Translations under genes and position numbers: made by a program
Source: a virus
IMG/VR virus record: IMGVR_UViG_3300001589_000079
Location: 1 to 32,465 of that record
DNA length: 32,465 nt
Reading direction: 5' to 3' (one strand)
In this document: positions 10,809-30,168 of the stretch, piece after piece
Layout: every line of letters starts with the position of its first letter
Position numbering within the stretch: the first letter of the stretch is position 1
The notes under the pieces: generated by a model
Database searches by the model: none
What the model saw: only the letters and a program-made list of their open reading frames with translations
Told to the model about the DNA's origin: nothing

Positions 10809-11450
10809 TTATCTTAATGAAAGTTTAGATTTACTGCTTACACCTGTTTTTGGTGTAAATATTTTTCTACCTAAATTGGCGCCTTTAGATATAGCATCGT
10901 CAGTACCAGTTGCACCCAGAGGGTTTGAAACAAAAGCCAACGGATCATCTAAAATATCTTTTGCTTTTTGCAGTCCTGCACCAGGCCCTGGAATACCACC
11001 TGTATACTGATTGCCTCTAAAGTTTGAACTATATTTAGGATCAGCAATCAAGTTACCTGTTTTAGGATCTCTTATAAATGCATCACTTGGAACTTCTTGA
11101 CTTTTCTTTCTCTCTTTGTCTCTTACTCTTTCAGCCTCACCACCAATTTTCTTTTTAGAATTTTTATTTTGTTGTGACTTAGCATCAATTGTTCGAGCGA
11201 TTGCTTTATCTATTTCTGCTTTATGTTGTTTGCTTACCTCTGCTGAGTTCGAAGGTTCATTTGTACCTGTACGACTTTGTGATGCTTTAGAAAAGGCGGC
11301 ATCATAATCTAATTGTCCAGCATGAATATTTCTATATGTATTTACTGCTAGAGAAATATCTTGCCCAGATCTAACTAAGTCTGCAACTTTATTTGAGTCA
11401 GTTTTTACTGAGTCTGCTGTAACTTCTGTTATAAAATCGTTTATTTTCAT
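10809..11450 (-). CDS. Late protein, 213 aa, putative internal head protein
   Basis: This 213-residue protein is polar and probably largely disordered, rich in Lys, Asp, Ser and Asn, with a strongly charged stretch at about 85-120. The C-terminal part is Gly/Pro-rich and ends in a basic tail. No domain is recognised. The N-terminus MKINDFITEVTADS is the closest match in the window to T4 capsid-targeting peptides (MKTYQEFIAEA): a nine-residue leader then the I-T-E cleavage-type site. The ATG overlaps the upstream stop by 4 bases (ATGA). A GATAAATA octamer at 11514-11521 could add a promoter. A role as internal, cleaved head protein is inferred. Confidence 0.8.
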   Translation of the reverse strand: MKINDFITEVTADSVKTDSNKVADLVRSGQDISLAVNTYRNIHAGQLDYDAAFSKASQSRTGTNEPSNSAEVSKQHKAEIDKAIARTIDAKSQQNKNSKKKIGGEAERVRDKERKKSQEVPSDAFIRDPKTGNLIADPKYSSNFRGNQYTGGIPGPGAGLQKAKDILDDPLAFVSNPLGATGTDDAISKGANLGRKIFTPKTGVSSKSKLSLR

Positions 11451-12247
11451 TGCTTATTACGTCCACCTGCCCAGTAACCTGCTATTGCACCGATTCCTGT
11501 TCCTGCTTTCTTATATTTATCAACATTGGCTCCTGTCTTCTGTGCAATTTTCTTTCCTAGATATCTTCCTGCTACTGCACCTGCGGCCGCTGTTGCTACT
11601 TTTCTTGTTAAACTTGTTCTTGGTTCTTTATAATCTGATGAAACTCTTAGTCCACGGTCTTTGATCATACTAGTCATAGGTGTTACTAGTTCACTTCCTC
11701 TGCCCAAACGTCTTATTTCTTGAGAAAGTTTTGCTACTGCTAATTGTTTTGCGTTGTATCTTAATTTACCCCAACTTAAAACCATTCGCCTATAACTTTT
11801 GTATCTGGAATCTGTTATTTTAAGTTGATTTTCTAATCGCATAAAAAATGATAGTGCCTCATTATTTTTATCTGCACGTCTGCCCATTTTGGATATAAAG
11901 GCGTGGAACTGTCTTTCGTTAAATCTTAATTTGTCTAAGAACTCTCTGCTTTGTCTATTATTCTTAAACGAAATATATCTGTTATCTGGATTCTTAGTTG
12001 CGTATGCTAACATGTAAATGTCAGTGCCATGTGTTCGCATCAAAGAAAAATACCCATACTGTGATGTTTGCTTTGCGTATGCAACTGCATATTTTTCACT
12101 GCTGTCGTCTTGTAACATCATGTATAAAGATAATGTATGTAGATATAAAAGGTTTGCTATGTCGCGACCTGTTAGATTTTTAAAGCCATTGGTTGTTCTA
12201 TACAACCTTGCTTCTGATATTTCTTGATTTACTAATGTTAAATCCAT
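11447..12247 (-). CDS. Late protein with C-terminal glycine zipper, 266 aa
   Basis: I place the start at ATG 12245-12247, directly after the upstream stop, with GGAAAG as ribosome site. An upstream in-frame TTG at 12272-12274 would add 9 residues and overlap the neighbour. The N-terminus reads MDLTLVNQEISEARLY. The first 180 residues are helical and rich in Arg/Lys/Tyr, without a known domain. Residues about 210-262 contain two Gly/Ala-spaced hydrophobic stretches (TAAAGAVAGRYLG and GTGIGAIAGYWAGG). These are typical glycine-zipper segments able to pack in membranes. It is followed by the 213-residue gene with an ATGA overlap. A role in membrane passage of DNA or cargo is conceivable but not shown. 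Confidence 0.78.
   Translation of the reverse strand: MDLTLVNQEISEARLYRTTNGFKNLTGRDIANLLYLHTLSLYMMLQDDSSEKYAVAYAKQTSQYGYFSLMRTHGTDIYMLAYATKNPDNRYISFKNNRQSREFLDKLRFNERQFHAFISKMGRRADKNNEALSFFMRLENQLKITDSRYKSYRRMVLSWGKLRYNAKQLAVAKLSQEIRRLGRGSELVTPMTSMIKDRGLRVSSDYKEPRTSLTRKVATAAAGAVAGRYLGKKIAQKTGANVDKYKKAGTGIGAIAGYWAGGRNKQ
11514..11521 (-). promoter_or_regulatory. Possible internal late promoter octamer (GATAAATA)
   Basis: The minus-strand GATAAATA lies inside the end of the glycine-zipper gene, 63 bases upstream of the 213-residue gene. This is the same distance as at the 89-residue gene. The spacing is suggestive, but the motif also fits the coding sequence and may be chance. Confidence 0.4.
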
Positions 12248-12248
12248 T

Positions 12249-13505
12249 TTACTTTCCAGGTGCTCCTGTGCCAAAGTTAAGTCTGCTAAACTCTAGTCTG
12301 TCTACTAACTTAATTGCGTTTCCTACTTTGTCTACTGCAACAAATCCTTCTTCGCCTGTTACTTCATACCCATTTTCTGTTTCTTTAAATGTTGGTATTT
12401 GACTTATCTGCTCTAACTTTTTAATAATTCTAATTTTTGCTTCTATAATTTTTAAATACAAATCGTATACAGCAACAATTTGTTCTAGATTTTCTTTAAT
12501 GAACTGTACCCCTTGAACTAATTTATTATTTGCTTCGTCTTGTTTCTTTGCTGTTTTGTAACCATCTATTTTCTTTTGCATAAAGTCAGTATACTTTTTT
12601 ACAAAGCCTTGTGCAAATTTAGTTGGCTGATCAAATGCTCCTGCTCTGATGTTATTGTTTACATGTGCTTTTAATTGTTGTAAGAAGTCTTTTCCTATTA
12701 AATCATTACCTTGTTCTAACCATCTAAATGTATTACTATCTATTTTTTGTAAATAACTGTTAGCATCACTTACAGCACTCATTACATTGTCATTTTCTTC
12801 TTGTGTTAATGTAACTGTTCCACTTAAATCTTTTATAATTGCATCTCTATGCCACACATTAGGAGTTTCTCCTAATCCACTGCTATCAAATCCAAAAGTT
12901 GCAGTTGTGTCTGCTAATGTAGGTCCACCTGCATACTCTGTATGCCAAACAATACCTATTTCTGCATTTGTAATTTTAGATGCTAGTTCTGAATCAGTAG
13001 GTACTGCATAAACAATAGTATTAGGTTTGAATGCAATTACTTTTTCTCCGTTAAGGGACATTGTTTGTAAATCTTCTTTTGTATACAGCATGTCGCCTTG
13101 TGCAACTGTATTCCAATTGAGTCCTTTTAAATATTTTAATGCTACTTTTAATTTTTTCTGTAGTCCTTCTGCAGGATGATTTTCTACAATGTCTCTATCT
13201 GTAAAATTAATCTTTGGGTTTCTTGCAAAAACTCCTTTAGTGCCTACAAAGAATTTACCTGTTTCAGGATCTCTGCCTGCTATAATTGCCGGGGCTCCAT
13301 CCCACTTTGTTGTCATACTAACAGGTGCATCTGCATTGCCTTCTAGCATTTGATGTAAACTATACAAATAATCGACTGCTTCCTTGGCACCTTCTATCCC
13401 TTTATTAAAAATATGATCTTCTAGATGTTCTAAATGGGTATTCTTGCCTTCTGCTTCGCATATAATAGATGTGATTGAGGCTTTAACTACCTCATTTATT
13501 CTCAT
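12249..13505 (-). CDS. Ligase-like covalent nucleotidyltransferase domain protein, 418 aa
   Basis: The protein carries the order of motifs expected for the ATP-dependent DNA/RNA ligase and capping-enzyme superfamily: TKWDGAPAI (66-74, with Lys67 of K-x-D-G as candidate nucleotidylated lysine), GTKGVF (88-93), QGDMLY (136-141, motif III-like), VIAFKPNTIVYAVP (156-169, IIIa-like) and EIGIVWHTEY (182-191, IV-like). The C-terminal half is helical and Lys/Gln-rich, without a clear OB fold. From memory, relatives are widespread in T4-like marine phages as a hypothetical family. The start MRINEVVKAS fits the late N-terminal pattern, with I-C-E at about 15-17 as a possible cleavage site. It overlaps the upstream gene by ATGA. 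Nucleic-acid joining or end repair after injection is an inference. Confidence 0.8.
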   Translation of the reverse strand: MRINEVVKASITSIICEAEGKNTHLEHLEDHIFNKGIEGAKEAVDYLYSLHQMLEGNADAPVSMTTKWDGAPAIIAGRDPETGKFFVGTKGVFARNPKINFTDRDIVENHPAEGLQKKLKVALKYLKGLNWNTVAQGDMLYTKEDLQTMSLNGEKVIAFKPNTIVYAVPTDSELASKITNAEIGIVWHTEYAGGPTLADTTATFGFDSSGLGETPNVWHRDAIIKDLSGTVTLTQEENDNVMSAVSDANSYLQKIDSNTFRWLEQGNDLIGKDFLQQLKAHVNNNIRAGAFDQPTKFAQGFVKKYTDFMQKKIDGYKTAKKQDEANNKLVQGVQFIKENLEQIVAVYDLYLKIIEAKIRIIKKLEQISQIPTFKETENGYEVTGEEGFVAVDKVGNAIKLVDRLEFSRLNFGTGAPGK

Positions 13506-15554: not shown

Positions 15555-16937
15555 TTAGAAGTCGTTCTTCTTTAAGAACTCGTGCATGTTCAGTGCTTGA
15601 TCAATAGTGCCTTTAGATTCTTCATCTTCTGCTTTTATTGAATTGCCACGTTTTAGTTGATCAACTAGTCCTGTAGTTGTCATTGTCATTGCATCTTCGT
15701 CGCCTTCTTCTAAATCTTCAATACGCAACGTATCAGGATTAAACTTTAAGTCTACTTTACTACCAACACCACTACTAGAACGTGTTTTCATAAACTGTAT
15801 CTGATACCTGCCACGTTCTCTCATAGCATTACTTGTAAATATACCTACAACATTATCTGCTGTTTGTATTTTACTAATACCACCTGCAATATGATGGTGG
15901 TCAAATTCTATTTCTTCTACTGCACCTCTGTTTAACTGCGATGCTGTTACCATTAGTAAATCTCTTTCCATTGCTAAGTTACGCAACTCCTCAGATACAT
16001 ATTTGTCTTTGATAAACAGATCACTTCCACTTACTTTATTACTAATAGGCATCATAAGATCTAAGTAATCAACAAGTAAGCAATCTATTTTTTCTCCACT
16101 AGCAATTTCATATTCTCGTAAAAATACTCTTAGATCATTACAATTAACACCATTGACCATTTGTTTTACTCTAAGTCTACCTGCACCTTTGGCCTTCATA
16201 CGAACTTTTAAGTCAACATCATCCATATTACGCATAACATCTCTTGTGCTATACCCACTTACCATTGCATCTAGACGCATACTAATAAGTTGCTCACTAA
16301 GTTCTAAACTAATATAAGCAACATTAAGTCCTGCAAGTGCCCAATTTACAGCAAAGTTCTGTAAGAACAAACTTTTACCTGCACCGGAACCACCTGCAAA
16401 GATTGTTATCTCGCCTCTGTTCATGCCACCATACAATTTTAAATCAATTCCTTTCCAACCTGTGCTTACTGCACCTGCTTGATCTTTGATCCATTGTAAT
16501 CTTGCTTTAGGATCTTCGAAATATTCTATTCCTAAGTCTTTTACAAGTCCAACCTGACTTGCGTTTTTAATCTTTTCTTCTACTGTTCCATAGTCTTGAT
16601 TTTCTAACAAGTCTGTGCTTTCAATAATTGCTTTTTCTAATGCTTTGTGTCTACAAAAAGTTTCAAACTCATTAATAAACCATTCATGATGATCTACTGT
16701 AACATTAGGAATAGGCTCTAGTTGTATGCCTGCTACAGCACTAACTTGCTCTGGAGTAGGAATGGAATTATGATTTTCGCTATGGCTTTTAAAAAGTTCT
16801 ACTGCTGACCTGTATTTTAAATTAAAATACTCAGGTTGCACGATGCTTTGGCACCTTGCAAACAAGTCTTGTTCACTCAATAAGAATCTCAAGAACAATT
16901 CTTGTGTTTCTTCGTTGTAATTTTTTATATCGCTCAT
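15555..16937 (-). CDS. 41: Replicative DNA helicase, DnaB/gp41 type
   Basis: The 460 residues compare with 475 in T4 gp41. This ring helicase unwinds DNA 5' to 3' at the phage fork and works with primase gp61. Residues 1-130 are the helical N-terminal domain. Residues 155-400 are the RecA-like motor: Walker A GGSGAGKS (182-189), then NVAYISLELSE (206-215, with the catalytic-type Glu), Walker B CLLVDYLD (286-293), and a Q-containing segment TASQLNR with a basic FMKTRSSSGVG stretch near the C-terminus. It is the last gene of the primase operon, overlapping the SGNH-like gene by ATGA. The ribosome site is weak, so translation is probably coupled. The assignment is secure. Confidence 0.97.
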   Translation of the reverse strand: MSDIKNYNEETQELFLRFLLSEQDLFARCQSIVQPEYFNLKYRSAVELFKSHSENHNSIPTPEQVSAVAGIQLEPIPNVTVDHHEWFINEFETFCRHKALEKAIIESTDLLENQDYGTVEEKIKNASQVGLVKDLGIEYFEDPKARLQWIKDQAGAVSTGWKGIDLKLYGGMNRGEITIFAGGSGAGKSLFLQNFAVNWALAGLNVAYISLELSEQLISMRLDAMVSGYSTRDVMRNMDDVDLKVRMKAKGAGRLRVKQMVNGVNCNDLRVFLREYEIASGEKIDCLLVDYLDLMMPISNKVSGSDLFIKDKYVSEELRNLAMERDLLMVTASQLNRGAVEEIEFDHHHIAGGISKIQTADNVVGIFTSNAMRERGRYQIQFMKTRSSSGVGSKVDLKFNPDTLRIEDLEEGDEDAMTMTTTGLVDQLKRGNSIKAEDEESKGTIDQALNMHEFLKKNDF

Positions 16938-17677
16938 AATTTTTCTAACTCACTTATTATATATCTATAAATTTCATAATGCCCGTCTTCGTTTGGATGA
17001 CAGTCGGTATCACTTTCAACAAGAGGGCCTTGCTTTCCTACAATGTAGCTCATAGGTTTTGTAAAGTATGGTGTAATGTGTTTAACATTTGGTATGCATT
17101 TCTCATCCATTGCTGTAAAAAGTAACTTAACACCTTTTGCTTTACATAACAGTTTTAAATTATTACACAATCCTAATATGTGTAATTCTCTGTCATTATT
17201 ACTTGTCATCATTTGATCGTTGAAAATTCTTATTTTATGTTGAAATTTATCTTCTAGTGTTTCTCCTAAATCATTTCTAAATACTTCTTTTTCTTCCCCT
17301 ATGTAGCCGTGGCCGCTTCTTTTAAATCCTTCTTGATTTAAAATATCTAATACTTCATATCTATCATAATCTTGAACAAACCCATCAAGTCCATAATTGA
17401 TATATACGTCTCTATCAAAATGGTTTAACTGTTCTGCTCTTATAAACATCTCACCTCTCTCCATTTTAGACAGTTGACAAATTACAACATCTAAATCATC
17501 ATTTGCTATAACATTTTCTATGCACATTCGTAATGCTCTAAATGAACTACCTCCATTTAAAGAATCATTAATAACAGATACATCTTGATTAAATAATTTA
17601 CACCAAGCCTTGCCGCCACGGTCTCTAAGACCTTGATGCCCTGCGGAAAAACTACAACCATTTATATAAATTTTCAT
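16934..17677 (-). CDS. SGNH/GDSL hydrolase-like protein, copy A (247 aa)
   Basis: It is a paralogue of the gene immediately upstream; the two are similar over the full length. It carries SGNH-type blocks: INGCSFSAGH (5-14; Ser9 candidate nucleophile), SLNGGSS (39-45, Gly block), DVVICQLS (62-69) and DCHPNEDGHYEIY (225-237; Asp225/His227 candidate catalytic pair). SGNH enzymes are esterases, lipases or sugar O-acyl hydrolases, and some are acyltransferase partners. No signal peptide is visible, so it acts in the cytoplasm. It is tightly coupled (ATGA) to both the second copy and gp41. Its substrate is unknown. A role in replication is suggested only by the operon. Confidence 0.8.
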   Translation of the reverse strand: MKIYINGCSFSAGHQGLRDRGGKAWCKLFNQDVSVINDSLNGGSSFRALRMCIENVIANDDLDVVICQLSKMERGEMFIRAEQLNHFDRDVYINYGLDGFVQDYDRYEVLDILNQEGFKRSGHGYIGEEKEVFRNDLGETLEDKFQHKIRIFNDQMMTSNNDRELHILGLCNNLKLLCKAKGVKLLFTAMDEKCIPNVKHITPYFTKPMSYIVGKQGPLVESDTDCHPNEDGHYEIYRYIISELEKL

Positions 17678-18390
17678 AGTTTCTTCAACTCACTTAATAT
17701 ATATTTGTAAATTTCATAATGTCCTGCTTCGTTTGGATGGTTGTCCTCTGCACTTTCAACTAGTGACCCTGTTCTACCTATAATATGACTCATAGGTTTT
17801 GTAATGTAGGGCATTAACGTCATATCACCATGGTAAGACGGAACACAAATTGAGCTCATTGCTGTGAACAAAAGTTTTATACCTTTTATTTTGCATAACT
17901 TTTCTAAGTTATTACATAATGCTAATATTTCAATTTGTCTTTGCCACTCAGGTACAATTACTGTATTATGCCATAATATATTTTTATGGAAATATACATC
18001 CTCTATAGATTCTCCTTTTTCATTAAAGAATTGTGTATCTTTTCTTGTTGTAAACCCTTGCTGTTTGAAAACTTCTATTTCTTTTTCACCTAAAATAAAC
18101 CTATTAGTAATATAGTTAATATACATGCCTAGATCTTGATGAAAAAATTCTCCTCTATGCGGATTAGACAACTGACAGATTATAACATCTACTTCTTGAT
18201 TTTTCTGTCCATGACGCATTGCTCTATCCATACACATACGCAATGATCTGTGTGAACTTCCTCCTGATAGAGACTCATTTTCAACACGATATCCATTGTT
18301 ACTTAGGTGCTGTGGCCAAAGTTTGCCGTTACGTTCTATGAGGGCATTATGTCCATGAGAGAAACTACAACCATTTACATATACGATCAT
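17674..18390 (-). CDS. SGNH/GDSL hydrolase-like protein, copy B (238 aa)
   Basis: It shares block order with copy A: VNGCSFSHGH (5-14), SLSGGSSHRSLRMCMDR, DVIICQLS, LLFTAMSSIC and the final DNHPNEAGHYEIY near residues 216-228. It keeps the candidate Ser and Asp/His residues, so both copies look potentially active. No signal peptide or membrane segment is visible. It lies between primase gp61 and copy A, with ATGA overlaps on both sides. The tandem arrangement indicates a duplication followed by divergence. The function is not known. Confidence 0.8.
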   Translation of the reverse strand: MIVYVNGCSFSHGHNALIERNGKLWPQHLSNNGYRVENESLSGGSSHRSLRMCMDRAMRHGQKNQEVDVIICQLSNPHRGEFFHQDLGMYINYITNRFILGEKEIEVFKQQGFTTRKDTQFFNEKGESIEDVYFHKNILWHNTVIVPEWQRQIEILALCNNLEKLCKIKGIKLLFTAMSSICVPSYHGDMTLMPYITKPMSHIIGRTGSLVESAEDNHPNEAGHYEIYKYILSELKKL

Positions 18391-20621: not shown

Positions 20622-21183
20622 GATTTTCTAGTATAGAATTTAATTGAACAGTAATTGCTAAAGCATAACCCATTGCGTGGCTTTGTTTAAAAAAGTAGTC
20701 ATCTGTTTTTACCCAAACTTCTTTTTCAATATCCTTCCAATCCTTTCCAACCAAGTGCCTTTTACCTGGTCTTATCATTGCAAGTATCATTGCTAATTGT
20801 TCTATGTTTTTAGGTTGGTGCTGTTTTACTATTTCAAAATGTTTTGCAATGTGAAATAGTTGTTCAACTATTTCTTTATGTCCAAATAGTTCCCACATTG
20901 GTTCTGTTGCAATAAGTCTATCTAAATGTTCTTCATCTTTAATATCTTTGTATATATGATTATTTAAAAAGTCAACTTTAAACCAACCTTCTTGTTCTGC
21001 TTGTTTGTGATCTATTGTGCTATAGCCTTCTAATGGAAATTTAGGAATGTTCTGAAAGTAGACACCAGTATTGTGTTTGGTAAACGTACCATCCTTTTCA
21101 ATACTTGCAGGCGTATGCTTAACTAATCTGAGAAAGTCATCTCTATTAGCCATATCAATGTCTACATCAAAATCAATTTTCAC
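20605..21183 (-). CDS. Miniature DNA polymerase III alpha (DnaE)-like catalytic core, 192 aa
   Basis: The protein looks like bacterial DnaE reduced to its active-site pieces, in the same order. DFDVDIDMANRDDFLRLV (4-21) matches E. coli DFDVDFCMEKRDQVIEHV, so Asp6 and Asp8 match catalytic Asp401 and Asp403. TKHNTGVYF (35-43) matches GKHAGGVVI. GWFKVDFLNN (66-75) matches GLVKFDFLGL, so Asp71 matches Asp555. QPKNIEQLAMILAMIRPG (123-140) matches QPDCFEDMIALVALFRPG. FFKQSHAMGYAL (164-175) matches GFNKSHSAAYAL. The PHP domain, most of the fingers, the clamp-binding and OB parts are absent. It starts with GTG (21181-21183), overlapping MazG by 11 bases. The E. coli alignment is from memory and should be verified; polymerase activity is not certain. 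Confidence 0.7.
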   Translation of the reverse strand: MKIDFDVDIDMANRDDFLRLVKHTPASIEKDGTFTKHNTGVYFQNIPKFPLEGYSTIDHKQAEQEGWFKVDFLNNHIYKDIKDEEHLDRLIATEPMWELFGHKEIVEQLFHIAKHFEIVKQHQPKNIEQLAMILAMIRPGKRHLVGKDWKDIEKEVWVKTDDYFFKQSHAMGYALAITVQLNSILENLNQTS

Positions 21184-21433
21184 TGAACAACAAACTCCAT
21201 TTAATTAGTTTTTCTTTTTTAATTTGCATACGTTCTTGTATTTGCTCATCACTTACTAATCCATTATTTTTTAAAATATCTATCATACACATTACATCGC
21301 CTATTTCATCTTGTAAGTTTGAAAGATCGTTTGGGCATTGGTCTTTTTCAAAACGTATAATTTTACTACATGCTTGACTAAGTTCTGCACACTCTTCCAT
21401 TGTGATGACTAACATTTCTTGTTTTCTATTCAT
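21173..21433 (-). CDS. mazG: MazG-like nucleotide pyrophosphohydrolase, copy A (86 aa)
   Basis: A minimal all-alpha NTP pyrophosphohydrolase: EECAEL (13-18) and DEIGDVMCMID (43-53) give the E-x-x-E and E-x-x-D metal-binding motifs of the MazG/dUTPase-like fold. Such enzymes hydrolyse (d)NTPs, or possibly other nucleotides, to monophosphates. Phage MazG has been linked to nucleotide recycling or control of (p)ppGpp-type signals. It is adjacent to a second, diverged MazG-like gene with a 1-base overlap, and to the DnaE-like gene. The substrate cannot be told from sequence. Confidence 0.88.
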   Translation of the reverse strand: MNRKQEMLVITMEECAELSQACSKIIRFEKDQCPNDLSNLQDEIGDVMCMIDILKNNGLVSDEQIQERMQIKKEKLIKWSLLFSEN

Positions 21434-21723
21434 TATTCTTCCTTAACAAATATTCCATCTACCATTTTGCCTTTGCGATCTTTTATATCCTCATAAGCAA
21501 CACCTAAGCATTCTTCTAATGTTGTGCCTTCTCTTTCAGCAATGTTAATAAGAATAACTAGACAATCTCCAATGTCGTCTTTTACATCTTCTCCTTTACA
21601 AACACTATCTGATAGTTCTCCAACTTCTTGTATTAATTTTAATACTTGGTCTTTACTAGTTGCACCATCAATTAAGTTTCTATCATGATGCCATTGCGAT
21701 GTTTTTTCAATTAAGTCCTTCAT
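21433..21723 (-). CDS. mazG: MazG-like nucleotide pyrophosphohydrolase, copy B (96 aa)
   Basis: I choose the ATG at 21721-21723 (MKDLIEKTSQW), which has AGGAG five bases upstream. A longer frame to 21753 would overlap the upstream gene by 22 bases. It keeps the pair of metal motifs, EVGELSD and DDIGDCLVILIN. The sequence differs clearly from copy A, so the two may have different substrates. It sits between the zinc-finger gene and copy A. The family assignment is good; specificity is unknown. Confidence 0.87.
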   Translation of the reverse strand: MKDLIEKTSQWHHDRNLIDGATSKDQVLKLIQEVGELSDSVCKGEDVKDDIGDCLVILINIAEREGTTLEECLGVAYEDIKDRKGKMVDGIFVKEE

Positions 21724-21731
21724 TCTATCTC

Positions 21732-22448
21732 CTATAATCTTGCTACTTGGCAAGTCTTTTTAATTTCTGCTACTTCTTCTTTGTTGGCTAAAAATACTTT
21801 CATCCAAAATTTAGAATCTATTATATCTTTTATCATATCTACTTGCTCAGAACTAAAACGTCTAAACAAGTCATTTCCGGAGTCACTTAAATACATAACC
21901 CATGGTGACACTTTTGCTGAACGTATATCATGAACTGCTCTTGGTGTAGATACTTCTTTAAAATATTCACTATAATCTTTATTATTATCCTTTGCCCATT
22001 CAGACAAATACATTATTGTTCTTTCTAATGCTTTTAATCCAGGCTCTTTTTTAACATATAATAATAAAAATTCATCATACATTTTATCTTTATGCCAATC
22101 TGCTAGTTTCTTTCCGTTCTTGATTAACCATTTTGCAAATTCTTCTGGTTGCAAATATTCGTTTCTAATGCAACTTCTTCCAAACTTTGTAAAGCCTTCA
22201 TAGTATTGACTTCTAATAAAATCTTCTTGAGACTTTGCCTTACTTGCTGTTGTATTCAATTCATAAAACATTTGAAATACTCTATACCCTAGCCTAGTAT
22301 GTGTTAAATCTTTGTCTGCATATCTTCTTTTCTTAACACACATATGAGCACTTAGAGTTCTTTCACTCATAAAGTTTTTGTTACACCATTTACAGGTGTT
22401 ACTTTCCAAAGATGTCTTTGATTGTTTTGTCATCGTATCCGTAGTCAT
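21732..22448 (-). CDS. Zinc-finger protein, 238 aa, conserved in T4-like marine phages
   Basis: An N-terminal zinc-finger-like motif, CKWCNKNFMSERTLSAHMC (19-37), is C2H2/C2HC-like. It is followed by about 200 residues of mostly helical, charged sequence without a known domain. The ATG at 22446-22448 lies inside the end of the gp62-like gene (50-base overlap) with AAAGG nine bases upstream. The long overlap suggests coupled translation. From memory, T4-like cyanophages carry a similar protein next to gp62. A role in DNA or RNA binding during replication or transcription is likely but not shown. Confidence 0.8.
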   Translation of the reverse strand: MTTDTMTKQSKTSLESNTCKWCNKNFMSERTLSAHMCVKKRRYADKDLTHTRLGYRVFQMFYELNTTASKAKSQEDFIRSQYYEGFTKFGRSCIRNEYLQPEEFAKWLIKNGKKLADWHKDKMYDEFLLLYVKKEPGLKALERTIMYLSEWAKDNNKDYSEYFKEVSTPRAVHDIRSAKVSPWVMYLSDSGNDLFRRFSSEQVDMIKDIIDSKFWMKVFLANKEEVAEIKKTCQVARL

Positions 22449-22869
22449 ATGCCAATGCCTTTAATTCATTATTACTGTTTAACTTAATCATCAATTCTAT
22501 ATCTTCTGGTTTACTATGCGGATATAAACCATATAAGAATTCTGATATTTTATTTTTCTTCTTTTTAGCATTGGGTGGTTTTAAGTAAGGGTGGAATTGT
22601 ATTTTGCCAACACCACATGCACTAAGTAATAACCACTGTAGTTCAGGATGCTTACTAACTTCCATAAACTGAAAGTTTACTAATTCATTTGTAAGATATA
22701 TGTAGTTTGCGGCATCTCGACCTTGCACACTACTGCAATATCTCATCATCATCCAGGCACTAAATGCCTTTTTCTGTTCAGCAGTAAGACGATTATAAAA
22801 ACCTCTGTCTTTCTTATCGACAGCCGCCATTACATCTTTAAGTGCTATTGCTGGTAACTTTTTAGCCAT
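22399..22869 (-). CDS. 62: Probable DNA polymerase clamp-loader small subunit, gp62-like
   Basis: The 156 residues (T4 gp62 has 187) are largely helical with short basic stretches. The pattern of a central EVSKHPELQWLLLSACGVGKIQFHPYL segment and a C-terminal LKALAYDYGYDDKTIKDIFG segment resembles gp62 of marine T4-like phages. In T4, gp62 joins the gp44 ATPase to load the sliding clamp gp45. It has no ATPase motif, as expected. The ATG overlaps the apt stop (TAATG), with AAGGA as ribosome site. gp44 and gp45 are not in the window. The call rests on remembered family pattern and is moderate. Confidence 0.6.
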   Translation of the reverse strand: MAKKLPAIALKDVMAAVDKKDRGFYNRLTAEQKKAFSAWMMMRYCSSVQGRDAANYIYLTNELVNFQFMEVSKHPELQWLLLSACGVGKIQFHPYLKPPNAKKKKNKISEFLYGLYPHSKPEDIELMIKLNSNNELKALAYDYGYDDKTIKDIFGK

Positions 22870-23408
22870 TATGTTCCTTCAAATTCTACAAGTGTTTTAA
22901 CATTGTAACCTTGCTGTTGTATTATAGCACTTCCCTTCAAATCGGGCAAGTCTATTACAGCCAGAATTAAAATATTTTCTTTAGGAACATCAAAAGCATT
23001 GTATAATATATCTGCACAGGCTATTGCAGTTCCGCCTGTAGCAATTAAGTCATCTATAATTACAACTTTGTCAGTGTTTCGAATTGGCGTGTTGCATTGT
23101 ATACTTAAACTTGCTTCACCGTATTCTAACTTATAACTTTGTGTGTAGCATTGTCCGGGTAACTTGCCTGGCTTTCTTGCCATTACAAAAGGCACTTCTA
23201 AGTCTCTGGCAAGTGGTGCCCCGAATACAAAACCTCTACTTTCAATTCCAATTATCTTATCTGCTTTAAAATCCATGCAGTCATTAGTTAATTGCATTAG
23301 TGCATAATTAAATGATTGTGGATTTTCTACCAGTGATGTAATATCTCTGAATTCTATGCCCTCGATAGGAAAGTCTAATACAGTTCTTATATATTTTTTT
23401 AAGTCCAT
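22869..23408 (-). CDS. apt: Adenine phosphoribosyltransferase
   Basis: It converts adenine and PRPP to AMP and diphosphate. It has the type-I PRTase signature VVIIDDLIATGGTA (PRPP loop), the N-terminal FRDITSLVENP segment and the IIGIESRGFVFGAPLA flexible-loop region typical of Apt. Length is normal (about 179 aa). I prefer the start MDLKKYI at 23406-23408, the typical Apt N-terminus; an ATG at 23421-23423 would add five residues and also has a possible ribosome site. It overlaps the end of metK by 10 bases. Together they could make SAM and recover the adenine released by its breakdown. The assignment is secure. Confidence 0.95.
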   Translation of the reverse strand: MDLKKYIRTVLDFPIEGIEFRDITSLVENPQSFNYALMQLTNDCMDFKADKIIGIESRGFVFGAPLARDLEVPFVMARKPGKLPGQCYTQSYKLEYGEASLSIQCNTPIRNTDKVVIIDDLIATGGTAIACADILYNAFDVPKENILILAVIDLPDLKGSAIIQQQGYNVKTLVEFEGT

Positions 23409-24496
23409 GCTTGTTCTTCCCATGGCAATCCTTGTCTTCCAAAGTGACCGTAGTTTGTTGTTGTAGCAAGATCTAAATTAAATAAATCAAATTTTTCTAT
23501 AATACCTAACGGTGTAAGATCTAGCAGTGACTTAACATGTTCTGCAATTACATAGTTTATTTTTTTATCAGTCCATATTGTTACTGATGTAGGCTCTTTT
23601 ATTCCAATAGCATAACTTAATTGTACTAATACTTCTTGAAATGGATTTTCTAGCAATACTTGTTTTGCAATTGATCTAGCCATATAAGCGGCACTTCTAT
23701 CAACTTTAGTACAATCTTTACCACTAAATGCTCCTCCGCCATGTGGAGATGCTCCGCCATAAGTATCAACAATAATCTTTCTACCAGTAAGACCCGTGTC
23801 GCCATCCGGGCCACCTATTACAAATCTTCCTGTAGGATTAATTAAAAAATTTGTATCAGTTGTTAAGTATTCACCTGCAACATCTTGTATAACTTCCTTA
23901 ACTCCTTCTCTGACAAATTCTAGATCAACATTTTCTTTATGCTGAGTGCTACATACTACATTTGCAATGTCAATTGGTTTGCCATCACTTCCATAATTAA
24001 AAGTAAATTGTGCTTTATTATCAGGTTCTAACCAAGTATAGTTTGGATCATTTTTTCTTAGTATTTGTAATTTTTTTAGCAATTCATGACTATAATATAA
24101 TGGCAGTGGCAATTTGTTGCCTGCTTCTTCACATGCATAGCCAAACATTATACCTTGATCTCCAGCACCAAAGTCATCTGTTCCTAGTGCTATATCTTGG
24201 CTTTGGCCATGTAAGTGATTTTGTACTTCTACTGTTTCCCAATGGAAGCCTTCTTGCTCATATCCTATTTCTTTTATAACTTCTCTTACAATGTTTTCGA
24301 TTCTATCTGGATTCTGTCCTCGATCGCTTTTAAATTCACCTGCCAGTATAACTTTATTTGTTGTAACTAATGTTTCAACTGCGGCTCTGTGATTGATATT
24401 TCCATTGATTAAGTATGTTGCTACAGTATCAGATATTAAATCTGCTACTTTATCTGGATGTCCTTGCGAAACACTTTCGCTTGTAAATTGATACAT
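23399..24496 (-). CDS. metK: S-adenosylmethionine synthetase
   Basis: It makes S-adenosylmethionine from methionine and ATP. At 365 residues it is a little shorter than the usual 380-400. The landmarks are present: ESVSQGHPDKVADLISD (7-23, His14 of HPDK), GAGDQGIMFGYA (substrate/ATP loop), RFVIGGPDGDTGLTGRKIIVDTYGG and the glycine-rich SPHGGGAFSGKDCTKVDRS ATP/phosphate region. It appears complete and active. The ATG has GAGG upstream, and apt follows with overlap. A phage metK is unusual. It could raise SAM for methylation or offset consumption in a small-genome host. Confidence 0.96.
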   Translation of the reverse strand: MYQFTSESVSQGHPDKVADLISDTVATYLINGNINHRAAVETLVTTNKVILAGEFKSDRGQNPDRIENIVREVIKEIGYEQEGFHWETVEVQNHLHGQSQDIALGTDDFGAGDQGIMFGYACEEAGNKLPLPLYYSHELLKKLQILRKNDPNYTWLEPDNKAQFTFNYGSDGKPIDIANVVCSTQHKENVDLEFVREGVKEVIQDVAGEYLTTDTNFLINPTGRFVIGGPDGDTGLTGRKIIVDTYGGASPHGGGAFSGKDCTKVDRSAAYMARSIAKQVLLENPFQEVLVQLSYAIGIKEPTSVTIWTDKKINYVIAEHVKSLLDLTPLGIIEKFDLFNLDLATTTNYGHFGRQGLPWEEQAWT

Positions 24497-24504
24497 TGAT
24501 TACC

Positions 24505-24792
24505 TCATTTCATTTTTAAATTTAATATTTCTTCCCATTCTGCATATTCTGTTTTATTAAAAGAGTTTACAGGAAATTGTGGCGGTTCTATATGTAGCCA
24601 CCTTTCTCTTTTATAAAGTGTTTTAAGCCAAACCTTATTTCCACTAATTGTTATTTTAGGCGTAAATGCAAATGTCTTTTTCCATTTAGTAGTTCTTAAG
24701 TTATCTTCACTATTAATATAATCGCCTGCAATGGTACCTTTATTCTTCAAGTGTGGATACCTAGCATAGGCTGGATGATTATAATTCACCAT
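24505..24792 (-). CDS. Small hypothetical protein, 95 aa
   Basis: This is a basic, Trp/Tyr/Lys-rich, probably beta protein without signal, membrane segment or known motif. The start MVNYNHPAYARYP overlaps the upstream kinase/nucleotidyltransferase gene by 14 bases. An in-frame GTG one codon later is possible. It lies directly upstream of metK. The family is not recognised. The tight coupling on both sides is the main reason for believing it is real. Confidence 0.7.
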   Translation of the reverse strand: MVNYNHPAYARYPHLKNKGTIAGDYINSEDNLRTTKWKKTFAFTPKITISGNKVWLKTLYKRERWLHIEPPQFPVNSFNKTEYAEWEEILNLKMK

Positions 24793-25582
24793 CCTCTCTC
24801 ATTTGCTTCCTAATTTTGGTTGCACTGATATTTTGTGTTTCCTCATCTAAAACTTCTTCTTCAATTTTATATCCTACACCTCTGCCATAAGTAATATTCA
24901 TTATGTTAGGTACAGGGTAACATCTAAACTTACCTGCATGTTCGGCCAGTGCTATTTCTATGTTCTCACAAATCTTATCCACTTGCCAAGGATTATCGTC
25001 TGTTAAAGGCATATCTCTTACAAGTAATGCTACTTGACCATGTTTTGCTAGTGCTCTTTCAAATAACTTTTGATGTCCTTCATGCCATGGTTGAAATCTT
25101 CCTAACATTTGTGTGGTTGGTTGCTTTGGTTGGAACTCATGGTCTTTAATATCGACTGCAATTAATCTAGCCCATTCTTCAATTTTTTCTTCTGTCCACC
25201 AATCTTCTGCATTTATAATAGCATTTACTTTTACACTATCTATAACAGGTTTTTCAAACATCTTATTTGTGTCTTCAAATCTACCTTCTTCAATAGTATT
25301 CATCCAAATAACATACTCAGGAACATTTTGTTCTCTAAGTTTATTAGTAGGACAAACAAAGTCTGCTATACCATAGTTTCCTTTTGCAACACTTTTACGA
25401 ACATAATCTCGCATACGCAATGATTGTCTTTCTCTACCTTCAGGTGAAAAATCCCAATCATCAAATGTTTCTCTTATTTTGTCTGCATTATGCCAGTCTG
25501 CATTACCTAAAATTTTTGTTAATTTTTCAGCAAGTGTAGATTTACCTGAACCAGGCAATCCAAATATTAATATTCGCTTCAT
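24779..25582 (-). CDS. Bifunctional APS-kinase-like / NadM-like nucleotidyltransferase fusion
   Basis: Two domains. Residues 1-145 are a P-loop kinase: GLPGSGKST (8-16), then HNADKIRETF...DFSPEGRERQSLRM and ADFVCPTNKLRE. This is the pattern of adenylylsulfate (APS) kinases. Residues about 156-267 are an HxGH nucleotidyltransferase: GRFQPWHEGH (161-170), and ISATKIRKQM (252-261) like the ISTTxIR motif. They are closest in pattern to NadM/NMN adenylyltransferases or cytidylyltransferases. In NadR the order is reversed (transferase first, kinase last). The enzyme could act in NAD salvage, or phosphorylate and activate a small metabolite. The substrate is not known. It overlaps neighbours by 4 and 14 bases. 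Confidence 0.82.
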   Translation of the reverse strand: MKRILIFGLPGSGKSTLAEKLTKILGNADWHNADKIRETFDDWDFSPEGRERQSLRMRDYVRKSVAKGNYGIADFVCPTNKLREQNVPEYVIWMNTIEEGRFEDTNKMFEKPVIDSVKVNAIINAEDWWTEEKIEEWARLIAVDIKDHEFQPKQPTTQMLGRFQPWHEGHQKLFERALAKHGQVALLVRDMPLTDDNPWQVDKICENIEIALAEHAGKFRCYPVPNIMNITYGRGVGYKIEEEVLDEETQNISATKIRKQMREDGEL

Positions 25583-26331
25583 CTATTTTCCTTTTCCCAT
25601 TCAACGTTATCGTTGTATTCATCCCAATATTCTTGGTCTACATTAGTATATCTATCTGCTGGATCTCTCCATTTCTTATTTAACCAGCCTATATCAGCAT
25701 CGTAACTTTTACCGGTAGTATCATTGTAATCGTAATCTGTATCAAGTTCTTCTTTGTTGTAGTAAACAGCATCAACAAATTCTCCTAAGTTTGTTTCGCA
25801 AATCCCATAGGCTAATTTGAATTCATCAAAATCTTCTCCGTCTGTTTCCATATACCATACACCAAAAGTTCCCTTTTCAGAACTATGAAAACATAATACT
25901 GGCATATACTCATCTTTATTTTCAGTTGGCTCTTCTCTTCCAAAGTATGCACCTTCTCTACCATACAGTAAGATTCCCTCACCGTCATAAATTTCTTTAT
26001 CATAACTCCAATCATCTGAGCCATCTGCTGGAACTTCGTACACAAAAAATCCGCCATCTGCATAAGGACCGTTAAGGTGTTCTAGTTCATCACATTCCCA
26101 CATATAAAAATCGTTATCTTCTAATGCAGGACTAGGTGGAGTATTCGGATCTTGTAGTGCATCTGCAGGTAATTCTGATTCATCCCCATAGTCGTCTGTT
26201 TCTAAAACTGCTTCTACAATTTCCATACTATCATGCTCTTCATAGTATCTTACAAAATTTGGATTAACTTCTCCTAAAACAAGTTCGCCTCCGTATCTGC
26301 CGCCTTCTATTCTAAATTTTCTTTTTGCCAT
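25579..26331 (-). CDS. Highly acidic conserved protein, 250 aa
   Basis: Asp and Glu make up about a quarter to a third of the residues, with many Tyr and Trp and few basic residues after the first 15. The N-terminus MAKRKFRIEGGRYGGELVLG is basic/Gly-rich and may be a small beta module. There is no known catalytic motif, signal or membrane segment. The ribosome site AGGAGGT is near-perfect. Candidate roles are a DNA-mimic inhibitor or an acidic scaffold, from charge only. It lies in the early/middle region between the UvsW-linked gene and the kinase fusion. Confidence 0.75.
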   Translation of the reverse strand: MAKRKFRIEGGRYGGELVLGEVNPNFVRYYEEHDSMEIVEAVLETDDYGDESELPADALQDPNTPPSPALEDNDFYMWECDELEHLNGPYADGGFFVYEVPADGSDDWSYDKEIYDGEGILLYGREGAYFGREEPTENKDEYMPVLCFHSSEKGTFGVWYMETDGEDFDEFKLAYGICETNLGEFVDAVYYNKEELDTDYDYNDTTGKSYDADIGWLNKKWRDPADRYTNVDQEYWDEYNDNVEWEKENR

Positions 26332-28476: not shown

Positions 28477-28506
28477 ATTATACTACCAGTTGTACTGTAA
28501 TGTCAA
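28477..28506 (-). promoter_or_regulatory. Sigma70 promoter for the zinc-ribbon/uvsW operon
   Basis: Minus-strand TTGACA (28501-28506), 18-base spacer, TATAAT (28477-28482). The -35 box lies in the last codons of the receptor gene. The predicted start falls within a base or two of the zinc-ribbon ATG. Confidence 0.8.
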
Positions 28507-30168
28507 GTTTACTTGTTTGCCTTGGTTATCATAATAAGGCAATACTTCTACTTTTTCATCTGTAAGATTTTCATATGAGAAGTTTAAGTTTAATCCATTA
28601 GTAAAACTTTTAGTAATAAACAAACTTAGTTTTTTAAGATCGTCTAAAAATTCCTGTCCTTCAGGTAAGTAATCATATGGTCCAGGTGCTCTATCAAACT
28701 GTCCTGCATATTGTACTTTATAGTCAACATCTTTAAAAGTTTGTTGCCACGTAATAACAGTTACATATTCGGGTATTCTAGTTTGATCTGTGTCATTAAC
28801 TTTAAGCATAACTGTCATAGGACCCCATGTATTACTAAATCTAATACCTTTAGTTGTATAAGAACCTGAGTTATTATACCTTGCATTAGTCCAAACAGAT
28901 TCTGTAACAGCATCAAGTATTAAAGTACCAGCATCATCGTATATTGCATCTTCAATAATATTTGTAGTCATAAATCCACTAGTATACTCGATTGACTCTT
29001 TAAAGTCATACACAAATAAACTAATTGCACCAAACCCAACCTCATAACCTACGCCTTCTTCAGGAAGTAAATTATCGTTGCCATCAACATAAGCATCACC
29101 AAATACTTCGTATAAGTTTGGTCGTCTGTAACTTGTTCCAAAGTTTATAAAGAATTGGTCTTTTGATATACCTAACCTCACAGCATTTTGATCATCGTTT
29201 CCTGCTCTTAATCCAAAGTTATACTCTAAAGCAAACTCGGCATTAACACTTAAAAAGACTCCATAGTCATCTTTTTCATGTACACCATATTGGTCTCTAC
29301 TTCCGTCAGCACCATATGTAACTTCTAATAGGTTAGATAGTTGTACTGTATCTCCTACTCTAAAGAAGTCTCTACTGCTTTCATTTTCATATGTACTAGC
29401 ACCTTCTGTAAAATACTCTGCTTTATCTTCTGTTCTGCCAACAGTAAAGAATTCATTTCTAATACTTACAGTAAATCTTTCGCCGTCTTGTAAGCAGTCA
29501 TTAGATTGGCTAAAACTAGCAGTATAACAATTATCATAATCGTATGCATAGTCTGTTGCAGTAACATAAAGTTTAAAGTCTCCTGCGTCTGCTATAATTT
29601 TTGCACTAGTATTTTCGTACTTGTCATATTCTTCATTGTCATTTCTTGCTTGTTGCTTTACTGAGAAATCTGTAACCTGCATCCAAGTTGTAGGTGCTAC
29701 TGAAATATATTGATGATCTTGATTACCTAATCTTCCTGTAATTCCTCTTGTGATTGTGTCCTTAATTAATACTGTACCGCCAATACTTCCTGACCCATAC
29801 ATAACACTATTTGCACCACTTATAACTTTAACACTTTCGCCTGACACAATATCATGTCCAAAGTCGTACCAACCTGAACCAGGTGTGTTTTGTGGTATGC
29901 CGTTTCTATATACTGTAGAGTGAACCGATTGTGTTCCACGTTCTCTATATAGAATATTTCCTCCATAGCCTCCTGCTATCCAGGTTACATCAGGCATTAT
30001 GCTACTAATTAATTTAGTATCTGTAAGTGCATCTGTTTCTGTTTGTTTTACTACCTGAGCAACTACAACTACCTCTTCTATATCTTCAGCAAGTGCAAAT
30101 GCTGTCCATAAAGGTAAAGATATAATTACTGCAATTTTAACGATATTATCGTATAAAAATCTTTCCAT
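28483..30168 (-). CDS. TonB-dependent outer-membrane receptor
   Basis: The 561 residues (most family members have 600-800) span a signal peptide (1-27, hydrophobic, AxA-type cleavage before ED), a TonB box IEEVVVVA (30-37), a plug domain (about 43-137), and a C-terminal beta-barrel. The plug has YRERGTQ, VYRNGIP and a GANSVMYGSGSIGGTVLI run. The barrel shows alternating hydrophobic strands, an NLTDEK segment and the aromatic last residue YNW. These receptors import iron chelates, cobalamin or other substrates using TonB energy and are often phage receptors. The frame is uninterrupted. AGGAG precedes the ATG, and a consensus sigma70 promoter lies just upstream. The ligand is unknown; a cysteine pair (NCYTASFSQSNDCL) suggests a structured loop. 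Confidence 0.93.
   Translation of the reverse strand: MERFLYDNIVKIAVIISLPLWTAFALAEDIEEVVVVAQVVKQTETDALTDTKLISSIMPDVTWIAGGYGGNILYRERGTQSVHSTVYRNGIPQNTPGSGWYDFGHDIVSGESVKVISGANSVMYGSGSIGGTVLIKDTITRGITGRLGNQDHQYISVAPTTWMQVTDFSVKQQARNDNEEYDKYENTSAKIIADAGDFKLYVTATDYAYDYDNCYTASFSQSNDCLQDGERFTVSIRNEFFTVGRTEDKAEYFTEGASTYENESSRDFFRVGDTVQLSNLLEVTYGADGSRDQYGVHEKDDYGVFLSVNAEFALEYNFGLRAGNDDQNAVRLGISKDQFFINFGTSYRRPNLYEVFGDAYVDGNDNLLPEEGVGYEVGFGAISLFVYDFKESIEYTSGFMTTNIIEDAIYDDAGTLILDAVTESVWTNARYNNSGSYTTKGIRFSNTWGPMTVMLKVNDTDQTRIPEYVTVITWQQTFKDVDYKVQYAGQFDRAPGPYDYLPEGQEFLDDLKKLSLFITKSFTNGLNLNFSYENLTDEKVEVLPYYDNQGKQVNLTLQYNW

Follow-up and report, generated by a model that had tools for sequence, protein, structure and literature searches.

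A phage kinase–nucleotidyltransferase fusion with relatives in marine bacteria and haloarchaeal plasmids is a candidate compact PAPS synthase

Human PAPSS1 is built as a kinase followed by a half with an HxGH motif, and this motif, HNGH, is needed for ATP sulfurylase activity according to the part of PMC11697783 that was consulted. In the consulted parts of two reports on viruses, the products of viral cysC genes are described as APS kinases that serve assimilatory sulfate reduction (PMC9529941), and cysC and nadM are listed separately for Lake Baikal viruses (PMC8066274). For SAR11 bacteria, the consulted text of PMC5069961 states that AprBA can make APS and that Ca. P. ubique lacks cysDNCHIJ and sat.

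Here we describe a gene that joins an APS-kinase-like half to a small HxGH nucleotidyltransferase (NT) half, located in an IMG/VR virus record (IMGVR_UViG_3300001589_000079) of 32,465 bases that we call the window. We show its two-domain anatomy, modelled folds and conserved motifs, and the linkage of the family to APS kinase and sulfotransferase in several lineages. From sequence comparison, the family is most likely a new form of PAPS synthase. A search of open-access papers found no description of this kinase–NT fusion.

The fusion gene and its two halves

The fusion gene, its halves and its immediate neighbours are as follows.

24779–25582, minus strand: kinase–NT fusion gene, 267 aa, ATG start; the stop codon, 24779–24781, is included
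25136–25582, minus strand: P-loop kinase half of APS-kinase fold, residues 1–149 (by Pfam, motifs and model), with the motifs GLPGSGKS 8–15, NAD..R 32–37, DWDFS..GR..Q 42–53, DFVCP 74–78 and NTI..GRFEDTN 95–106
24782–25135, minus strand: NT half, a compact nucleotidyltransferase of NadM/PPAT fold, residues 150–267 (by profile, motifs and model), with the motifs GRFQPWHEGH 161–170, NP 197–198, VPNI 224–227, YGRGVGY 232–238 and ISATKIR 252–258
25579–26331, minus strand: upstream gene overlapping the fusion, 250 aa, cluster in 38 viral loci
24505–24792, minus strand: downstream gene overlapping the fusion, 95 aa, cluster in 33 viral loci
23399–24496, minus strand: metK-like S-adenosylmethionine synthetase, cluster in 36 viral loci
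22869–23423, minus strand: phosphoribosyltransferase, cluster in 35 viral loci

The analysis confirms that the fusion is real and that the kinase precedes the HxGH half, as an earlier note on this DNA had proposed when it described an APS-kinase-like domain in front of a NadM-like transferase, in an order opposite to that of NadR. A chance fusion can be set aside, since residues 1–261 match phrog_10255 ('kinase') with an E-value of 1.1e-52, and at least 597 of at least 599 pattern matches in viral contigs were confirmed as related stretches. The four neighbours of the fusion, each shared across 33–38 viral loci by gene clustering, mark the window's own phage clade, and the product of the upstream gene has no match in Pfam or PHROG. 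The earlier note had also used the adjacency of metK as grounds for a sulfur link; this is a weak argument, because metK is a recurrent neighbour among phages of the window's clade, with 36 viral loci and no locus from cells.

Elsewhere the window encodes a UvsW-like helicase, a DnaB-type helicase and a Toprim protein. It also contains a 683-aa phage protein (480–2531, minus strand) with a full-length match to Sod_Cu, the Cu/Zn superoxide dismutase domain (Pfam E 1.2e-43), which is preceded by Gly/Ala- and Lys-rich stretches. A TonB-dependent receptor plug domain (E 2.7e-9) is likewise present on this phage record, in a protein of 561 aa (28483–30168, minus strand), and a gene resembling it is in the equivalent place in a relative (L010:28–1734). 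Two small neighbouring genes resemble MazG-like pyrophosphohydrolases (21173–21753, minus strand), one narrowly passing the Pfam cut-off and the other narrowly missing it, and a pair of genes for proteins of 247 and 238 aa without a Pfam match (16934–18390, minus strand) look alike by eye, as if duplicated.

The kinase half passes the gathering cut-off of Pfam APS_kinase (PF01583; 25.5 bits against 21.1, residues 4–85) and falls far short of the NCBIfam apsK equivalog (TIGR00455; 19.4 bits against 138.7). A profile search with this half returned a probable APS kinase as its top match (7e-12). In an AlphaFold2 model of the whole protein, built from 51 window and locus sequences and having a mean pLDDT of 93.9, the N-terminal half is closest to APS kinases (Z 18.4, 1.9 Å over 142 residues, 4fxp_B), with gluconate kinase next (Z 15.8). 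Residues D34, R37, R50, F75 and P78 align with APS-kinase positions and are invariant among 40 aligned members of the family, which also show little or no variation in the P-loop, HxGH and ISxT-type residues. The second D and the R of the DGDxxR acceptor motif are also invariant in these members; the first D is replaced by N in most of them, giving NAD, and DGD is found in L003. It is quite probable that the kinase half phosphorylates APS or a close adenylyl analogue, and the evidence for this half, a fold match, is stronger than that for the NT half, a profile kinship.

The NT half reaches 20.2 bits with Pfam CTP_transf_like over residues 161–188, slightly below the cut-off of 21. Modelled alone (pLDDT 89.5), it adopts a NadM/PPAT-type adenylyltransferase fold with the motif GRFQPxHxGH, and its structural matches to PPAT (Z 10.9) and NadM (1f9a_A, Z 10.2, 2.9 Å over 111 residues) amount to a tie. 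Its profile kin is the archaeal NadM MJ0541 (5e-10), yet the archaeal NadM equivalog is not reached (TIGR01527; 21.1 bits against a cut-off of 181.2), and neither is the NadR model (TIGR01526; 29.3 against 341 bits), relative to which the domain order is reversed. Between two aligned blocks the NT profile has 11 residues where MJ0541 has 36 (72–107), and it is in this shortened stretch that the nicotinamide-stacking Trp of NadM sits. GRxVGY is a conserved motif of the NT's own. Among 141 distinct NT domains, a biased sample, 140 retain HxGH, 140 retain GRxVGY and 139 retain IS[AG]TxxR; decayed copies are under-sampled here because GRxVGY was among the patterns used to retrieve the genome loci, and the count of 141 of 141 for the 'NP' motif is uninformative, as its pattern also admitted NR.

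The HxxH and ISxT motifs of Sat are present as HEGH and ISATKIR, and the NT is colinear with the Sat part of 2gks at an E-value that is not significant. The ATP-sulfurylase signature QxRN is absent from the NT. No ATP sulfurylase was among the matches of the profile search that gave MJ0541, the Sat profile (PF01747) was not among the matches of the window protein down to E 0.1, and the structural match list of the NT half (VIA-align: PPAT, NMNAT) contained none, an absence that is not exclusionary. To our knowledge, no NadM-type domain uses sulfate.

Distribution and gene neighbourhoods of the family

The kinase–NT family is widespread, occurring in viral contigs, phages, SAR11, SAR86 and haloarchaeal plasmids. 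It was found in 5 of 50,697 phage records and in 15 of 72,556 plasmid records at E 1e-3, ten of which cover at least 80% of the query; genome contigs gave at least 592 candidate stretches, at least 141 of them confirmed, and 80 loci were kept for analysis. Seven of these 80 are fused, 55 have kinase and NT genes less than 100 bp apart and seven have both with a gap, while within the stretch nine show an NT only and two a kinase only. Fusion or close adjacency thus ties the kinase to the NT in 62 of the 80 loci. One of the fused seven (L093) resembles a phage contig that was binned with Synechococcus. SAR11 and SAR86 mostly encode the two domains as two adjacent genes; in the phages examined they form one chain. 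In a FastTree tree of the 141 NT domains, with group labels assigned by hand from record titles (L159, a Gammaproteobacteria record, was labelled SAR86), the window clade stands apart from a second phage group of 19 tips, which groups with two fused SAR11 copies (support 0.81); the haloarchaeal and alphaproteobacterial copies are deepest under midpoint rooting.

All nine haloarchaeal plasmid matches were inspected, and in each a DGDxxR kinase is joined to an NT (L207 by reading). These NT copies were found without motif patterns; all nine retain HxGH and GRxVGY, and eight retain IS[AG]T, L210 having ISGA instead (L207 again by reading). The two haloarchaeal kinases tested both pass the apsK equivalog cut-off of 138.7 bits, with 154.7 and 160.3, and the NTs of the same two fusions match the NT-family profile at E 3e-22. 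Each of the eight annotated records has a sulfotransferase gene upstream of the fusion, often separated from it by a single small ORF, and Pfam confirmed this sulfotransferase in L168; by reading, the ninth, unannotated record (L207) has a long ORF in the sulfotransferase position. We also observed a YqcI/YcgG-family gene beside the fusion or its sulfotransferase in eight of eight annotated records (L168:9875–10618, L169:9863–10612 and six more).

A locus of Microvirga lotononidis (L167) places the family within a nod cluster. The genes run nodI, nodJ, a Sulfotransfer_3 gene at the nodH position, an unmatched ORF, the fusion, a CysD-type gene and a CysN-type gene, with the NodI, NodJ and CysD-type proteins exceeding their NCBI cut-offs. 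The CysN-type protein (11181–12770) ends in a C-terminal DUF2061 membrane domain (E 1e-19), and no APS kinase match was found in it. The kinase half of the fusion has an intact P-loop and scores 54.1 bits with Pfam APS_kinase, and the NT lacks HxGH, GRxVGY and ISxTxxR, the sole such loss in the 141 distinct NT domains, a single gene in a biased sample. The simple reading is that the kinase stands in for the missing CysC part of CysN, and that the NT has decayed because CysD/CysN already makes APS. Kinase-only relatives were found in four annotated plasmid loci, three of which list a sulfotransferase within the stretch, namely those of Rhizobium, Cupriavidus (at a distance of about 6 kb) and Rhodoferax (L172, overlapping); the Methylosinus locus, whose gene table is incomplete, lists none.

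Among 13 family-carrying genomes, Sat was found in none, CysD matches in two (one over the cut-off) and Sulfotransfer_3 in ten. L091 and L092, which lie outside SAR11 and SAR86, have CysD matches (one over the cut-off) alongside an intact NT, and in L091 a sulfotransferase gene is in the same stretch as the family genes. Within the stretches themselves, a crude text pattern picked out a sulfotransferase in one of the 80 genome loci. In the SAR86 family, defined as the family of the complete SAR86 genome, 92 of 107 genomes, of no given completeness, have the NT at E ≤1e-20 (95 at 1e-3); the 92 include partial or broken copies in G059 and G056, and G035, G074 and G116 were not counted because their E-values of 3e-4 to 9e-4 are at the level of other nucleotidyltransferases. 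Sulfotransfer_3 occurs in 101 of these 107 genomes, Sat in none, and CysD over the cut-off in none (one weak match). Separately, a SAR86-family genome has a gene with a PAPS_reduct domain (L112:9684–10277, E 1.4e-20) about 3 kb from its kinase and NT genes.

The 197 genomes of the SAR11 family, likewise of no given completeness, contain the NT in 117, CysD in nine (seven over the cut-off) and Sat in nine, and 108 of the 117 NT genomes are without both Sat and CysD over the cut-off. When the lists were compared by hand, the NT was present in one of the seven CysD genomes and in eight of the nine Sat genomes, so that it occurs in 9 of 16 genomes with either sulfurylase against 108 of 181 with neither, and the NT and the known sulfurylases are therefore not mutually exclusive in SAR11. 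CysD taken alone gave a Fisher p of 0.019 (0.008 with the partial CysD of G164 included), values for related genomes that are not independent; the idea of exclusion between CysD and the NT was dropped given that Sat and the NT occur together in eight of nine genomes. This co-occurrence speaks against a strict replacement of sulfurylase by the NT in SAR11. The Sat-type ATP sulfurylases themselves are in G118, G126, G165, G190, G210, G273, G281, G289 and G307.

Five shared genes (90–99% identical) have the fusion upstream of them in one SAR11 genome (L087) and a sulfotransferase, CysD and CysN–APS kinase upstream of them in another (L196), a correspondence that is suggestive only, since the region looks like a variable island. 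The row of sulfotransferase, CysD and CysN–APS kinase in this SAR11-family locus (L196:7630–11262) is in itself unusual for a group described as being without sulfate assimilation.

The phage-side case for sulfation is weaker than the cellular one. Of 50 records searched for Sulfotransfer_3 (48 virus contigs and two phage records), two gave matches over the cut-off and two gave weak ones; in the record of phage L083 the gene is present twice, with one copy lying some 3 kb upstream of the fusion, and the record of L010, whose fusion is related to the window protein at 91%, has the gene about 16 kb away. The window's record lay outside this search, and a Pfam scan of 20 window proteins found no sulfotransferase. 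Small ORFs near the fusion in ten loci (L078, L079, L081, L082, L023, L027, L030–L032 and L034) looked sulfotransferase-like by eye, with an RxG loop and an R..S motif; Pfam scans of five of them, PHROG scans of four and searches with PDB profiles gave no support. Pfam also gave no match for two ORFs before the fusion in L073 or for an ORF of L088 (8721–9629). None of these ORFs was counted as a sulfotransferase. A DUF2061 gene adjoins the fusion in five phage loci by clustering, confirmed by Pfam for L054. In Stenotrophomonas phage Bhz60 (Casjensviridae), a NADAR gene (L001:5559–6002, E 4.1e-26) overlaps the start of the fusion; the NADAR domain is named for NAD/ADP-ribose, and this overlap would suit a role in NAD metabolism.

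Sulfate activation and its alternatives

In the mechanism that we favor, the C-terminal NT, a shortened HxGH adenylyltransferase of the NadM/PPAT type, would convert ATP and inorganic sulfate to APS and pyrophosphate, and the N-terminal kinase, with the fold seen in the model, would use a second ATP to phosphorylate the 3'-OH of APS and so yield PAPS. The PAPS would be consumed by sulfotransferases of the cell or the phage. Taken as a whole, this two-step reading of the fusion as a compact, two-domain PAPS-synthase-like enzyme is the account we lean toward, and the suggestion of two successive activation steps in the earlier note is probably right. With this activity the NT would represent a third kind of ATP sulfurylase, in addition to Sat and CysD/CysN. 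We give roughly even chances to the fuller proposal that this third kind, of about 118 residues, evolved independently from NadM-type adenylyltransferases, that together with its APS-kinase partner it gives SAR11 and SAR86, which are mostly without known sulfurylases, PAPS for sulfation, and that phages carry a fused one-chain version. Several points count against the PAPS reading: the kinship of the NT with NadM, the co-occurrence with Sat, the presence of AprBA, the finding of sulfotransferase over the cut-off in only two of 50 virus records, and the shortfall of the window kinase against apsK.

One alternative is that the kinase half is an APS kinase and the NT does something else, transferring AMP or CMP to another acceptor or serving a structural role, with APS coming from host AprBA, Sat or CysDN. 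The stronger support for the kinase agrees with this, as do the kinase-only relatives, the NT alongside Sat in eight of nine SAR11 genomes, the CysD matches in two other genomes, and AprBA as an APS source in SAR11 (PMC5069961, in the part consulted). However, the catalytic motifs are kept in all but one or two of the 141 NT domains, biased as that sample is, and also in the nine haloarchaeal NTs that were found without motif patterns (HxGH and GRxVGY); the NT is fused or close to the kinase in 62 of 80 genome loci, and the single clear NT loss, in Microvirga, coincides with a supply of CysD/CysN. We regard this alternative as unlikely. A non-sulfate acceptor is a further alternative, and one that we judge improbable. 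The O-methyl phosphoramidate pathway of Campylobacter uses a cysC-like protein as its cytidine diphosphoramidate kinase, and HxGH enzymes usually act on phosphate esters; on this model the NT would make a nucleotidyl compound from a non-sulfate group (a phosphonate, a phosphoramidate, or a sugar or amino phosphate), a 3'-phosphate would be added by the kinase, and a sulfotransferase-fold enzyme would transfer the group. The divergence of the window kinase from apsK and the location of some marine loci among sugar and capsule genes (L088, by reading) fit such a scheme, but both haloarchaeal kinases tested pass the apsK cut-off, and the NodI, NodJ, CysD and CysN-type genes of Microvirga belong to a known sulfation system.

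The earlier note had left the choice between sulfur and NAD open. An NAD enzyme would be a NadR with swapped domains, its kinase acting on nicotinamide riboside and its NT adenylylating NMN, perhaps for refilling NAD during infection or countering an NAD-depleting defence. The NadM kinship of the NT, the weak matches to the NadR and NadM models, the phosphoribosyltransferase near the fusion in the window and the NADAR gene of phage Bhz60 would agree with this, yet both models are far under their cut-offs, the NT of about 118 aa is shortened in the region that holds the nicotinamide-stacking Trp of NadM, and an APS-kinase-like first half fits poorly with NAD, as do the haloarchaeal, nod and sulfotransferase contexts. 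We consider an NAD enzyme very improbable. Sulfur is favored over NAD because the haloarchaea fuse a canonical APS kinase to the NT, sulfotransferase genes are neighbours, and the nod cluster contains the fusion; the sulfur half of the earlier suggestion is thus the one that holds up, with NAD as a minor possibility.

If the PAPS-synthase reading is correct, some very abundant ocean bacteria and many phages could activate sulfate, for use in sulfation, with no recognised ATP sulfurylase, and genome-based statements on their sulfate use would need a qualifier, namely activation for sulfation and not for reduction. ATP sulfurylases would gain a third lineage, minimal in size, and viral 'cysC' matches that belong to the kinase–NT family would point to sulfation in place of assimilatory sulfate reduction.

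Comparison with known enzymes

Each half of the fusion resembles a described enzyme and departs from it. Compared with CysC (PF01583, TIGR00455), the window kinase shares the fold (Z 18.4) and passes the Pfam cut-off, but it lies under the equivalog cut-off, and most aligned members of the family have NAD for DGD. The products of viral 'cysC' auxiliary genes have been read as APS kinases by profile and fold, as is the N-terminal half of the fusion here; compared by description, the consulted part of PMC9529941 makes no mention of an NT half or of SAR11, SAR86 or haloarchaeal kin. The NT has the GRFQPxHxGH, NPF/NPW and ISxT-type motifs of archaeal NadM (TIGR01527), whereas it is shorter, has its own GRxVGY and is joined to an APS-kinase-like protein or encoded next to one. 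NadR also combines a P-loop kinase and an HxGH transferase in a single chain, but in the opposite order, with a kinase of other kin and a model score far under the cut-off.

Comparison of sequence motifs did not find the pocket of one known bifunctional enzyme, the result that the earlier note had named as counting against it, and by profile the C-terminal half is no known ATP sulfurylase. As a whole the earlier interpretation is partly supported; it did not remark on the kinase-first order that the fusion shares with PAPS synthase. Animal PAPS synthases (PAPSS1/2), in the parts of the sources consulted, likewise have the kinase first, a GLxGxGKT P-loop and an HxGH motif in the second half. 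If an animal-type PAPS synthase is defined as an APS kinase followed by a PF01747 sulfurylase, the fusion shares the first part of this definition and has, in place of the second, a NadM/PPAT-type half that spans about 118 aa and does not match PF01747, in a chain of 267 aa against about 560–630 in PAPSS1 PDB chains. The order of the two halves parallels human PAPSS1, as would a reliance on HxGH in the second.
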